Below, in pieces: positions 55,643-58,929 of a DNA stretch of 64,000 nucleotides (position 1 is its first letter; each line of letters opens with the position of its first letter). The stretch covers positions 312,001 through 376,000 of the forward strand of contig JAHBXW010000003.1 of assembly GCA_019636235.1 (NCBI GenBank). Direction: 5' to 3'. Position numbers and translations under genes: made by a program. Origin of the DNA: Planctomyces sp. (GTDB lineage Bacteria > Planctomycetota > Planctomycetia > Planctomycetales > Planctomycetaceae). Below the pieces are notes generated by a model. It was not told the DNA's origin, did not search any database, and was given only the letters and a program-made list of their open reading frames with translations.

Positions 55643-56425
55643 TCAGATCCGCAGCGCCACGCCTGTCGCCGCCTGCAGAATGTGGGCGCAGAACGTCACC
55701 TGCTCCCGGCTCAGCCGCTGGCTGCGGCCGCTGTCCCAGCACACCGCGGAGCGCACGCCGATGACGTCCACCGGCAGATCGCGCAGCACCAGCAGGTCTT
55801 CGATCCGCAGCCGCCCGGCGACCGCCAGGAACAGACCCGCCTCGTGAACCGTCTCCGCCAGTTCGGCGATGCCATCCAATGTCAGCCGGTCCAGCAGTCG
55901 TCCGGCCCGCTTGTCGAACGTGTCGACCAGCAGCCCGCGGCAGTCCGCGGAAATGGCCGCCTCGACAACCTCGTCCAGCGCCGGCGATGCGGCGGCGACC
56001 TCATCGGCATAGGCCACGGCGACCCAGCCCAGCTCGCGCCCGGCCGCGGCGTCGAACCGGCTCCGCAGTTCGGACCATTCGTCGCGCCAGTCGGCCCGGT
56101 CCCGCAGTCCAGCCAGCCCCAGTTTGCAGAAGTCAACATTGCCGGGCATCCGCCAGGGCCGCATCCGCCGCGCGTCCCGCAGCTCGCCCAGCGCGACGCT
56201 GACGGGCCGGCGATGTTCGGGGGAGGCGAGCAAACCGGCGACGTCATCGATCGCCTGCACGTCCGCGCGGCCCAGCGCGCCGCGCAGCGGTTCTTTGAGA
56301 TCGATAATGTCGGCCCCGCCGGCGGCGGCCTTGGCCGCTTCGAGCGGATCGCGCACGCTGACAAGGAGGGCGGGCCCTCGGGCGCCGCGCTCCGTCGCGG
56401 GCGATTTCCAATCCAGACTGATCAT
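55643..56425 (-). CDS. mfnB: MfnB-like (5-formylfuran-3-yl)methyl phosphate synthase
   Basis: The 260-aa product belongs to the DUF556/MfnB family. It shows LLVSVRDPLEAAKAAAGGAD, IIDLKEPLRGALG and NVDFCKLGL, with catalytic lysines K44 and K101 by comparison with archaeal MfnB, in a TIM-barrel. Archaeal MfnB makes the furan precursor of methanofuran from glyceraldehyde-3-phosphate. Planctomycetes have a tetrahydromethanopterin/methanofuran C1 pathway, and this gene fits there. ATG at 56425 follows AGGA by five bases; ATG at 56428 is also possible. No other C1 genes are adjacent. Confidence 0.88.
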   Translation of the reverse strand: MISLDWKSPATERGARGPALLVSVRDPLEAAKAAAGGADIIDLKEPLRGALGRADVQAIDDVAGLLASPEHRRPVSVALGELRDARRMRPWRMPGNVDFCKLGLAGLRDRADWRDEWSELRSRFDAAAGRELGWVAVAYADEVAAASPALDEVVEAAISADCRGLLVDTFDKRAGRLLDRLTLDGIAELAETVHEAGLFLAVAGRLRIEDLLVLRDLPVDVIGVRSAVCWDSGRSQRLSREQVTFCAHILQAATGVALRI

Positions 56426-56728
56426 CATTTCCTGAATCGTGTCCCGGCCCGGCTGCCGAATGAGGCGGGGGCCTGTTTGGGGAGGCAGTGTCGGGGAATC
56501 GCGGTCGGGACGCAACGATTCGCGTCTCCGCCGGAAGGAGCGGGGGACGCCCGGCGTGCTGGCCCGGCCGGCATCCTCTCCGCCTGACAGGGACCGCGGA
56601 GCCGCATTGGCTGGTCCCGGAAACCTGGAGCGGCGGCCGACCGTCGCCAGTCTGCCGCCGCGGGTGAGTAACTGATTGTACGCGGCCGCCGGACCCCTGT
56701 TGGCAGGAATCCGGCGGCAATTCGCCGA
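56426..56728. other. Intergenic region between mfnB-like and sigma factor genes
   Basis: About 300 bp separate the start of the mfnB-like gene from the stop of the sigma factor gene, both on the minus strand. It should contain the promoter of the former and the terminator of the latter, but I find neither clearly. No convincing gene was seen. Confidence 0.4.
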
Positions 56729-58396
56729 TTAAACGCCCGGAATGTCGAGCTTGTCCTCGGTCGCGATCTTCCGCAACTTCTGGAGCGCCCGGGCCTCAAT
56801 CTGCCGGATCCGCTCCTTGGTCACGCCGAACCGCGAACCGACCTGCTCCAGAGTCAGCGGCTCGGTCCCCTGCTGCAGTCCGTAACGGTGCATCAGGATC
56901 GACCGCTCGCGCTCTTCGAGCTGGTGCAGGATCGACATCAGCGCCTGTCGCTGACGGGAGTTCGTCGACTCGTCCTGCGACTGCGTTCCGCGGTCGTCCG
57001 GCGAGGCGTGGAACACCTCGTCGTTGCCGGTGCGGAACCGGTCGCGCTGCGTATGCTCCGCGGGAATCGAACGGGCAAAGTTCTTCATGATCGCCCAGGT
57101 GGCGTACGTGGAGAACTTGTTCCCCTTCGTGTAGTCGAACTTCTCGATCGCCCGCATCAGGGACATGTTCCCGTCGCTGACCATCTCGAAGAAGTTCATC
57201 CCCGGCTGCAGATGCCGCTTGGCGATCGAGACTACCAGCCGCAGATTGCTGCGGATCAGGAAGTTCTTGACGCGCGAGGCGTCCGCCACAAGTCGCTCGA
57301 GCTCATCGAGTTCGGCGGCCCGGGGGCGCTCGCGGTTGATCTTCTGCTGCAGCTGCGCGGCGCGGAACTTCAGGAAGTTCATCTTCCGGAAGTAATGCAC
57401 CTCCTCCTCGCGGGTCAGCAGCGGCATCGAGTACAGGCTGGCCAGGTATGCGGGCAGACCCGGGGGAGGCTTGAGCCGCCCCTGCTTCCGATCCACTTCC
57501 GGCGCCGGACCCAGAATCAACCGGTCCGCGTTCGGACGGTGGAATTCGGGGCTGTCCATGTACGCAATCGGTTCGTCGCACAGCTTCTGGGCGCGAACGT
57601 CCGCGATGATCCGGTACACGGCGGTGCGCGTCCGGCAATAATCCTTCGCAAGCGTGTCGACTGGAGTTCCTTTCAGGTAACGCTGATACAAATCTTCGCG
57701 GCGCTCGGGCGACAACGTGTCAGAGCTGCCAGGAAACACACGGCTGTCCGGGTTGGCCGTGTCGTGCTGCTTGAGGGTGTAGCGGATCGTCTCCGGGGAA
57801 CGCTGGAACGTCCCCGACAACTGCCGGCTGACTTCCGACGGGCAGGTCCCGAACCGGGCCAGGCGACGCGCCTTGTCCACGATCTCCTGCCGCTCGGATT
57901 CCGACAGCTGGCGGAACCGGCTGCCCCGGGCGACTTCGCTCTCGTTCTCGGTGACGAAACGCTCAACCGAGGACTCAAGGAACCCGACCCGCGACCGGTT
58001 TCCGAATTGGAACTTCCGGCTCACCAGGCCGCGCTTCCGCCAGCGATCCACGGTCTTGGTCGACACGTTGAAGCGGCGGCTGACTTCATCCACGGTCAGC
58101 ACCGGCTCGCCGGCGCGTTCCGCGGGCAGATTCACGCTGGCCGACAGGTCCTCGACGAACAGCCGCAGATCATGGGCCGCATCGGCGCCGTCGATCATCA
58201 GATCGGGGTAGGCCTGAGGCCGGAACGCGGTGACCTGTTCGCACAGATCCTGGTAGCGATATGTGCGGGACGGATCGAGCGAGGCCAGCACCTCTTCCGC
58301 GCGGTCCATCTGTTCCAGGCGCTTGTCGACAGGCGCGTAACGCACCTGCTGATCGGCAAGCTGCCTGAGTGCAGGGTTGTGGTAACGAGTCGTCAT
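56729..58396 (-). CDS. Sigma-70 family factor with N-terminal helix-turn-helix units
   Basis: The 555-aa product has a MerR/excisionase-like helix-turn-helix (about 98-128, LTVDEVSRRFNVSTKTVDRW) followed by two more HTH-like helices (about 178-210 and 236-268). A sigma core follows: region 1.2 (312-345, SLYSMPLLTREEEVHYFRKM), region 2 (375-450, with FDYTKGNKFSTYATWAIMKN), and region 4 (490-545, with EQVGSRFGVTKERIRQIEAR). Region 3 is missing; a 40-residue linker joins 2 to 4. The N-terminal HTH units suggest extra DNA contacts or a fused regulator. GAGAGGGGG before the ATG at 58396 decides the start. Target promoters are unknown. Confidence 0.93.
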   Translation of the reverse strand: MTTRYHNPALRQLADQQVRYAPVDKRLEQMDRAEEVLASLDPSRTYRYQDLCEQVTAFRPQAYPDLMIDGADAAHDLRLFVEDLSASVNLPAERAGEPVLTVDEVSRRFNVSTKTVDRWRKRGLVSRKFQFGNRSRVGFLESSVERFVTENESEVARGSRFRQLSESERQEIVDKARRLARFGTCPSEVSRQLSGTFQRSPETIRYTLKQHDTANPDSRVFPGSSDTLSPERREDLYQRYLKGTPVDTLAKDYCRTRTAVYRIIADVRAQKLCDEPIAYMDSPEFHRPNADRLILGPAPEVDRKQGRLKPPPGLPAYLASLYSMPLLTREEEVHYFRKMNFLKFRAAQLQQKINRERPRAAELDELERLVADASRVKNFLIRSNLRLVVSIAKRHLQPGMNFFEMVSDGNMSLMRAIEKFDYTKGNKFSTYATWAIMKNFARSIPAEHTQRDRFRTGNDEVFHASPDDRGTQSQDESTNSRQRQALMSILHQLEERERSILMHRYGLQQGTEPLTLEQVGSRFGVTKERIRQIEARALQKLRKIATEDKLDIPGV

Positions 58397-58929
58397 TGGT
58401 GTTCCCCCTCTCTCCATCTCGCGTCCACCGACCATCGTGACGGTGGGGCGCGGGGAATGTCGGGCGACGTCCGGGCACGGTGGAAAGCCGTGTGCCGCCT
58501 CGTGAATGTCTGAATGCAGTACGCAAATTGGACGGATGTCTGATCAAAAAAGTTCGCATGCGAAGCATTTTTTCCCAAACTTCTCGCCGCCGAGCAGGAC
58601 ACGCACTCCCTATGCCGCGGTCTCCGGATTCTTCGCGGCACTTCCTACGGTATTCGCAAGATGCCATGCCAATTGACCTTGCGCAGATAAACTGGCCTTC
58701 ATCGATGGGCCGTTTGCGCGCCGACTGGCTCTCTTCAGGTCAAATCGAGAATCCGGCTCGGCGAGGCCGATTCCGCCCACAACGGCCCCAAACAGCGGCT
58801 GCCAATCCGGCACCAAGGGGGCATGGGTGCCAAAGTGGCGTCAGATCGATGCATGGATTCACCGCATTGACGACGCATGGCGGGGCAGCGCGTCCCGACG
58901 CAGGCCGGGCAGGCGCGTGCCCACGCGGA
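58397..58929. other. Leader and promoter region of the sigma factor gene
   Basis: These 533 bp hold no convincing gene. The piece 58540-58580 is AT-rich and contains the palindrome described separately. Further right, weak open frames cross on both strands but have unnatural composition. A long 5' region for a sigma factor gene would fit complex regulation. Confidence 0.45.
58553..58564. promoter_or_regulatory. 12-bp palindrome flanked by A and T tracts
   Basis: TTCGCATGCGAA is a perfect palindrome, with A6 just left (58546-58551) and T6 just right (58568-58573). It lies 157 bp upstream of the sigma factor ATG. It could be an operator dyad for a dimeric regulator or the core of a short bidirectional terminator. 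The TTCG-N4-CGAA form is not a LexA site that I recognise. Confidence 0.45.

Follow-up and report, generated by a model that had tools for sequence, protein, structure and literature searches.

Sigma factors normally read the −10, the extended −10 and the −35 elements only, and separate activators are needed for more. ECF sigmas consist of regions 2 and 4 and lack region 1.2. As described in PMC4598750, these group 4 factors measure about 20 kDa and group 3 factors usually comprise regions 2, 3 and 4. Non-ECF factors with a lost or divergent region 3 are reported in vibrios, RpoX and RpoQ; RpoX is presented there as RpoS-like, and the accessible portion of that text mentions no HTH array (PMC6134601). 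In R. baltica, RB12251 is listed as a 567 aa “RNA polymerase specialized sigma factor” and is apparently among the genes repressed by heat, cold and salt, according to PMC2754498; it fits the protein discussed below by length alone. We found no description of the architecture of that protein in the literature searched, most subscription papers being outside its scope, nor in the portions available of PMC2754498, PMC8567305, PMC4598750, PMC8999054, PMC6134601 and PMC11119718.

The window, i.e. the whole stretch of 64,000 nucleotides of Planctomyces sp. that was analysed, carries on its minus strand an open frame at 56729-58396; translating the plus strand of this interval gives the wrong protein. 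The ATG at 58396 yields 555 aa and an alternative upstream ATG, at 58435, would yield 568 aa, but similarity among orthologs sets in at the 58396 start and not at 58435. With moderate confidence, we read this gene as encoding an alternative, non-ECF sigma-70 factor of Planctomycetota provided with its own array of predicted DNA-binding units. The gene and its sigma regions are placed as follows:

56729-58396, minus strand: sigma-70 family gene, 555 aa plus stop, with an extra N-terminal HTH array and without region 3
57362-57463, minus strand: region 1.2, residues 312-345, from alignment to PDB SigA chains
57062-57271, minus strand: region 2, residues 376-445, Pfam Sigma70_r2, 81% mean identity inside the window's class
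56954-57061, minus strand: linker at the place expected for region 3, residues 446-481, containing DRFRTG.DE.F, pLDDT below 50 over most of it
56753-56953, minus strand: region 4, residues 482-548, Pfam Sigma70_r4, hhalign 99.4

The two regions that define the sigma-70 family are both present above the Pfam cut-offs, Sigma70_r4 at residues 490-543 (1.8e-21, 75.8 bits) and Sigma70_r2 at residues 380-438 (5.4e-14, 52.2 bits), and region 4 compares with that of SigA-type and group 3 sequences at an hhalign value of 99.4. Region 1.2 gives only a weak Pfam match (E 0.09), while residues from 312 onward align with PDB SigA chains. Pfam detects no region 3 in the protein: the stretch between regions 2 and 4 amounts to about 36 residues, and residues 443-475 have a pLDDT below 50 in the AlphaFold2 model. 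A region-3 profile found five places in the own genome, none of them in this sigma gene, which is one of the 35 places found there with region 2; likewise, two other genomes of the family, G024 and G048, have four region-3 matches each and none at the ortholog of the sigma gene. The initial annotation had proposed that region 1.2 is present and that region 2 joins region 4 through a short linker without region 3, and both points hold. In the window's class, F428, Y431, W434, R529, R531 and Q532 are invariant in 41 of 41 sequences and T430 is kept in 40 of 41; we take the region 2 aromatics and the region 4 arginines and glutamine to be the residues acting in melting and in contacting the −35 element. 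Given such constancy of its core residues, the sigma part of proteins in the window's class seems functional, and a core sigma function is likely there.

About 300 extra residues precede the sigma regions, and they divide into the following pieces:

58121-58396, minus strand: N-terminal domain, residues 1-92, with helices 8-20 and 23-39 and strand-helix units 45-56 and 67-88, AlphaFold2 pLDDT around 90 from residue 11
57941-58108, minus strand: HTH1, residues 97-152, winged HTH of MerR/BldC/excisionase type, from Pfam HTH_17/HTH_23, the model and a BldC match
57743-57910, minus strand: HTH2, residues 163-218, tri-helical, from the model and its hhalign likeness to HTH3
57569-57721, minus strand: HTH3, residues 226-276, tri-helical, from weak Pfam Mor/HTH_7 matches, the model and hhalign
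57497-57568, minus strand: conserved segment ..MDSPEF.., residues 277-300, behind the last HTH3 helix and, together with that helix, common to short paralogs (hhalign 97.0)

HTH1 is clear from the sequence, HTH2 and HTH3 only with the help of structure prediction and family profiles. HTH_23 exceeds its Pfam cut-off (best stretch 100-122), HTH_17 at 99-151 falls slightly under it (26.5 against 27), and Mor and HTH_7 match weakly around 221-272. Since 63 of 68 orthologs match HTH_17, and equally many HTH_23, counted anywhere in the protein, the HTH reading is not the chance of one sequence. Two AlphaFold2 models, built on 5-7 sequences, predicted the domains individually and not their mutual placement: one of the full-length protein with the orthologs L001-L006 (mean pLDDT 77.5, pTM 0.40) and one of residues 1-299 with four relatives (mean pLDDT 82.9, pTM 0.55). 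Both show a domain covering 1-88, then a winged HTH spanning about 97-152, followed by two tri-helical units, 166-214 and 230-274; region 2 is poorly modelled (pLDDT about 55-67 at 391-440). In HTH1, the predicted order strand-helix-helix-strand-strand-helix is that of the winged HTH fold.

Structural comparison of the N-terminal model with PDB gave nothing under E 0.001 by Foldseek. VIA-align, all of whose Z values stay under 8 and could mirror a common arrangement only, placed residues 98-152 on the winged HTHs of small terminase, BldC and excisionase, phage Xis included (Z 6.5-7.3), residues 163-218 on POU homeodomains and others (Z about 6), and residues 230-286 or so on the C-terminal part of sigma chains (Z about 6), presumably their region 4. 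For BldC (6amk) the match to HTH1 is middling, with Z 6.6, rmsd 2.0 and 34% identity over 50 aligned residues; BldC is also the top PDB sequence match of the N-terminal profile (E 0.009), in agreement with the structure match. The predicted fold of residues 97-152 is thus common to BldC/MerR proteins, but BldC is a DNA-binding protein in its own right, small with about 70 residues, whereas HTH1 forms a single module within a sigma factor. VIA-align rows hardly extend over residues 1-92; we leave the fold of that domain without assignment and claim no novelty for it. A MerR/excisionase-like HTH followed by two HTH-like segments had been noticed beforehand from the sequence, with structure prediction named as the check, and all three are indeed predicted as HTH folds, with good confidence in the AlphaFold2 models and with VIA-align matches to DNA-binding domains of solved structures. 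Compared with each other, HTH2 and HTH3 score hhalign probabilities of 84.5 and 88.6 in the two directions, so that by profile they are copies of one another.

A displaced region 3 within the array was also considered and rejected: HTH1, HTH2 and HTH3 compare with region 3 at hhalign values of only 0.4, 0.5 and 3.3, against 99.4 for the control, the protein's own region 4 compared with that of other sigmas. HTH1 reached 44.6 and 68.8 with the family's own region 4, which we read as a general HTH likeness.

How such a protein might work can be proposed from the general roles of the sigma regions at the −10, the discriminator and the −35 and in the sigma finger. Region 2, together with region 1.2, would melt the −10/discriminator stretch and recognise it, while the −35 element would be recognised by region 4; the protein, deprived of region 3, would not read an extended −10, and the short linker between regions 2 and 4 would replace the sigma finger. 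HTH folds sometimes bind protein rather than DNA. Here the array would tether the holoenzyme to its own promoter set by having its winged HTH and its tandem HTH pair contact additional DNA close to the promoter, so that a single chain would serve as both activator and sigma factor. Three points are our extrapolation: that the array binds DNA, that it tethers the holoenzyme and that the linker has this role. That the array reads promoter DNA beyond the −10 and −35, as the initial annotation had thought possible, and so steers the holoenzyme, is suggested by the predicted fold, the conserved residues and the independent conservation of the array.

This independent conservation appears when the orthologs are compared. 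The 91 orthologs found were reduced to 71 by an 82% identity filter and, L053, L057 and L071 being left out, 68 were aligned. Eleven of the 68, spread over four families of the phylum, have a sigma half that diverged further than the rest. Pfam was run on ten of these sigma-decayed orthologs: region 2 is above the cut-off in none (a weak match in L096) and region 4 is above it, at the C-terminus, in four; the eleventh, L098, was assigned from the alignment. With the 41 sequences of the window's class as reference (L001 and L002 placed there by likeness), the mean identity of the 11 decayed orthologs can be set beside that of the 16 other intact ones. It drops from 50% to 19% in region 2, from 38% to 17% in region 4 and from 36% to 19% in region 1.2, whereas it moves only from 38% to 33% in HTH1, from 27% to 32% in HTH2 and from 28% to 29% in HTH3, and stays at 28% in the N-terminal domain. 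In the array, T115, R118, G123, L124, R205 and R262 are kept in all 11 decayed orthologs and in 12 to 16 of the 16 other intact ones; D408, in region 2, is kept in none of the 11. As the array is conserved where the sigma half diverged, its function is probably separable from sigma activity. Profile comparison still recognises the C-terminal halves of decayed orthologs as homologues of the intact sigma part (99.6 and 99.7), so that this is decay and not another fusion.

Substitution rates could be read, roughly (dS above 1.5), for one close decayed pair, L084/L091 (70% identical), where dN/dS is 0.14 for the array and 0.13 for the former sigma part. In six other decayed pairs, 33-42% identical, the array gave 0.26-0.80 and the former sigma part 0.37-0.90; these values are untrustworthy, as are those of the distant intact pair L067/L079 (0.76 and 0.54). 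From L084/L091, a single pair, the C-terminal part of decayed orthologs may be repurposed rather than dead. A short paralog is listed for 10 of the 11 genomes with a decayed long gene (in G342 a second match was counted).

These short sigma paralogs, also deprived of region 3, carry the end of HTH3 and, ahead of region 1.2, a conserved F motif (hhalign 97.0), while the N-terminal domain, HTH1, HTH2 and the first two HTH3 helices are absent from them (hhalign 0.1 for HTH1, 0.1 for HTH2 and 0.5 for the HTH3 helices). In the own genome, the short paralog at C4:62488-63372 resembles the window protein in regions 2 and 4, lacks region 3 and possesses the HTH3 end with the F motif. Their derivation from the long form by truncation fits this pattern, and the opposite order, the long form arising from a short one, would be allowed as well. 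Across the phylum such paralogs (L009, L111-L124) fall into two or more groups of the tree described below. One group of seven (support 100) includes copies from G111, G303, G368 and G384, whose long gene is decayed.

We propose, tentatively, that the long proteins form a phylum-wide sigma class with a built-in activator, each combining an operator-reading HTH array with a sigma core devoid of region 3, and that elsewhere in the phylum the jobs have been split, the long protein, no longer competent as a sigma, serving as transcription factor and a separate short paralog keeping the sigma core. If true, one would see here, preserved in nature, the conversion of a sigma factor into a transcription factor; a decayed sigma half beside an intact array suggests at least that the two functions can come apart.

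The same comparisons bear on two other readings. The array could be a regulatory lid that folds onto regions 2 and 4 and blocks RNA polymerase until a ligand, a partner or DNA is bound. Regulatory N- and C-terminal extensions are described for ECF sigmas (PMC8999054), and the domain 1-92, whose fold is unassigned, could be a sensor; however, the array is conserved where regions 2 and 4 decayed or were lost, and a pure lid should decay too, so that we judge this reading unlikely. Alternatively the protein could be mainly a promoter-bound transcription factor, its sigma activity being secondary even in the window's genome. Orthologs with region 2 under the Pfam cut-off do survive as open frames, and the dN/dS of 0.13 in the C-terminal part of the single close decayed pair goes in the same direction. 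Against this, region 2 is the most conserved piece within the window's class (81%, against 64% for HTH1) and its core residues are near-invariant, which makes such a role quite improbable there.

The relation of the window protein to the described groups was evaluated with a tree of regions 2 and 4, the phylogeny that the initial annotation had called for, comprising 81 sequences and four ECFs of the own genome over 131 columns only. All 20 SigA-type sequences form one clade (support 100) that contains no long or short member of the family; the four ECFs, on which the root was placed, stand apart. The shorter sigmas with region 3 take two placements, six beside SigA (support 94) and seven farther out (99). 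The long orthologs are not monophyletic (node support 42), and seven short paralogs of other classes group with 14 long orthologs (support 95); the branch there is long (1.23), and this grouping may be an artefact. Since the branching among them is poorly resolved, we did not use the tree to order the long and short forms.

With SigA/RpoD of groups 1 and 2 the window protein shares regions 1.2, 2 and 4, and its region 4 helix motif is close to that of SigA; it differs at the end of region 2 (TWAIMKNFARS against TWWIRQAITRA in SigA), by the absent region 3, by the extra N-terminal array and by its place outside the SigA clade. The absence of region 3 also separates it from group 3, in which regions 2, 3 and 4 are usually combined. 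It has in common with the ECF sigmas of group 4 the absent region 3 and the short linker between regions 2 and 4, but differs from them by its aligned region 1.2, its 555 aa and its long N-terminal array. Because region 1.2 is present and region 3 absent, the protein lies outside groups 1-4 as usually described (PMC4598750). The earlier claim that it is neither a standard group 1-3 sigma nor a simple ECF factor is therefore upheld: it does not group with the housekeeping sigma, and no region 3 can be recognised in it. One could still see in it a usual sigma of group 2 or 3 whose region 3 has diverged and whose extension is of no importance, following the vibrio examples of RpoX without region 3 and RpoQ with a divergent one (PMC6134601). 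This seems very unlikely: Pfam finds no region 3, the linker has only about 36 residues, the extension is conserved across the aligned orthologs and no SigA-type sequence groups with the protein.

Searching with the whole protein (1e-25) gave matches in 97 of 101 genomes of the family and in 82 of the 83 better ones, a few of the 97 being partial or concerning a short paralog only (e.g. G404, G440, G469). Among 392 genomes drawn evenly from the phylum, 90 match, those with only a short paralog included. For the window's class, 40 genomes (the own, genus, family and class rows of this draw) comprise 39 with a full-length match, and G339, where the match is split between contigs. Full-length orthologs were found in other classes too. 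A sigma factor with three HTH units, present in nearly all genomes of the family, would unite activator and sigma factor in such a way that tethered promoter choice becomes directly testable. Among 60 phage and 245 plasmid records with a match, none covers 80% of the protein in one place. A low-sensitivity scan of the chromosomes of other phyla returned seven loci, six planctomycete-named and one in another bacterial record, whose match covers 372-542; a restriction to Planctomycetota is likely. In G429, G453 and G471, which belong to one genus, and in L005 and L006/L101, the N-terminal part is shortened and mostly matches from HTH3 on; because of the three genomes of that genus, the full array appears not always needed.

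A role in defence or on a mobile element, like that of MzaA, the sigma factor of the MZA anti-phage system, is hardly credible: MzaA is also a long sigma-70 protein, whose region 2 stretch aligns with the window protein, and it is the best match both in NCBIfam (164.9 bits) and in PADLOC (112.2 bits), but those 164.9 bits stand far under the family cut-off of 800 with the best stretch in the sigma part, six nearby proteins scanned gave no PADLOC family match at E 0.001, and the distribution just described, near-general in the family and without such coverage in phage or plasmid records, speaks against it.

Two elements were noted in the DNA upstream of the sigma gene:

58531-58555, minus strand: promoter-like motif GAACTTTTTT...CGTC, upstream of the sigma gene, a looser pattern of which occurs in about a third of the ortholog upstream stretches
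58553-58564, no strand assigned: perfect 12-bp palindrome TTCGCATGCGAA, overlapping the GAAC box

The looser pattern, GAAC followed by two A/T positions, a spacer of 11-16 bases and CGTC, is present upstream of orthologs in 31 of 91 stretches, a figure to which the window and its copy L008 each contribute; in 200 dinucleotide shuffles the number was 0.6 on average and at most 4. This contrast is only descriptive, since the pattern was drawn from the same stretches and relatives count repeatedly. It is limited to the window's family and L001-L004 and absent from the 60 other stretches. GAAC...CGTC resembles ECF-type promoters; it could mark either autoregulation or control by an ECF sigma. No consensus TTGACA/TATAAT site was found at 58300-58900.

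In ten genomes searched with GAACTTTN{13,14}CGTC, a site lies at the sigma gene in nine, the tenth, G087 of the same genus, having GAACTTATTTT there. There are 4-11 matches per strand and genome, and 1-15 for reversed-pattern controls; besides the own gene the ten genomes show scattered sites only, with no conserved target set, and of 14 other T-rich sites inspected 11 are inside frames of at least 90 codons and three are not. For the palindrome, 113 sites are distributed over 54 of the 101 genomes, and at least 14 sites lie 5' of the sigma gene. Neither motif nor palindrome sites were taken as a regulon, and no operator emerged from these searches. At other sigma genes (19 further ones, 15 of which are short paralogs, and 30 with region 3), single motif matches are scattered at L121, L010 and L170, and the palindrome is present at L012. 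The only other perfect TTCGCATGCGAA of the own genome, at G000:C42:60506-60517 (L206), is upstream of a region-3 sigma gene, which could be chance; two further palindrome sites of G087 have no sigma gene alongside. G181 contains 22 copies of the palindrome, against 0-5 in the other 100 genomes searched.

The gene neighbourhood is a weak clue to the function of the sigma factor. Among 20 loci with long flanks, 12 (L128-L130, L133-L138, L140, L143, L144) have the sigma gene preceding, on the same strand, a run of tRNA-Thr-Tyr-Gly-Thr...tRNA-Trp-secE-rplK; the run is missing after the gene in the other eight, that of the same-genus G087 included. In the window, the sigma gene is followed downstream by an mfnB-like gene at 55643-56515 (minus strand), whose product scores about a quarter to a third of the cut-off of (5-formylfuran-3-yl)methyl phosphate synthase models. 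In 11 loci (L072, L073, L075, L082-L084, L091, L092, L094, L096, L098) a same-strand gene stands directly 5' of the long gene, which from its sequence we take to be mqnA-like (menaquinone synthesis). In other loci the long gene is followed by a gene that, again named from sequence, is presumably proC-like, at 63 bases or less in four of them and at 2.4 kb in a fifth.
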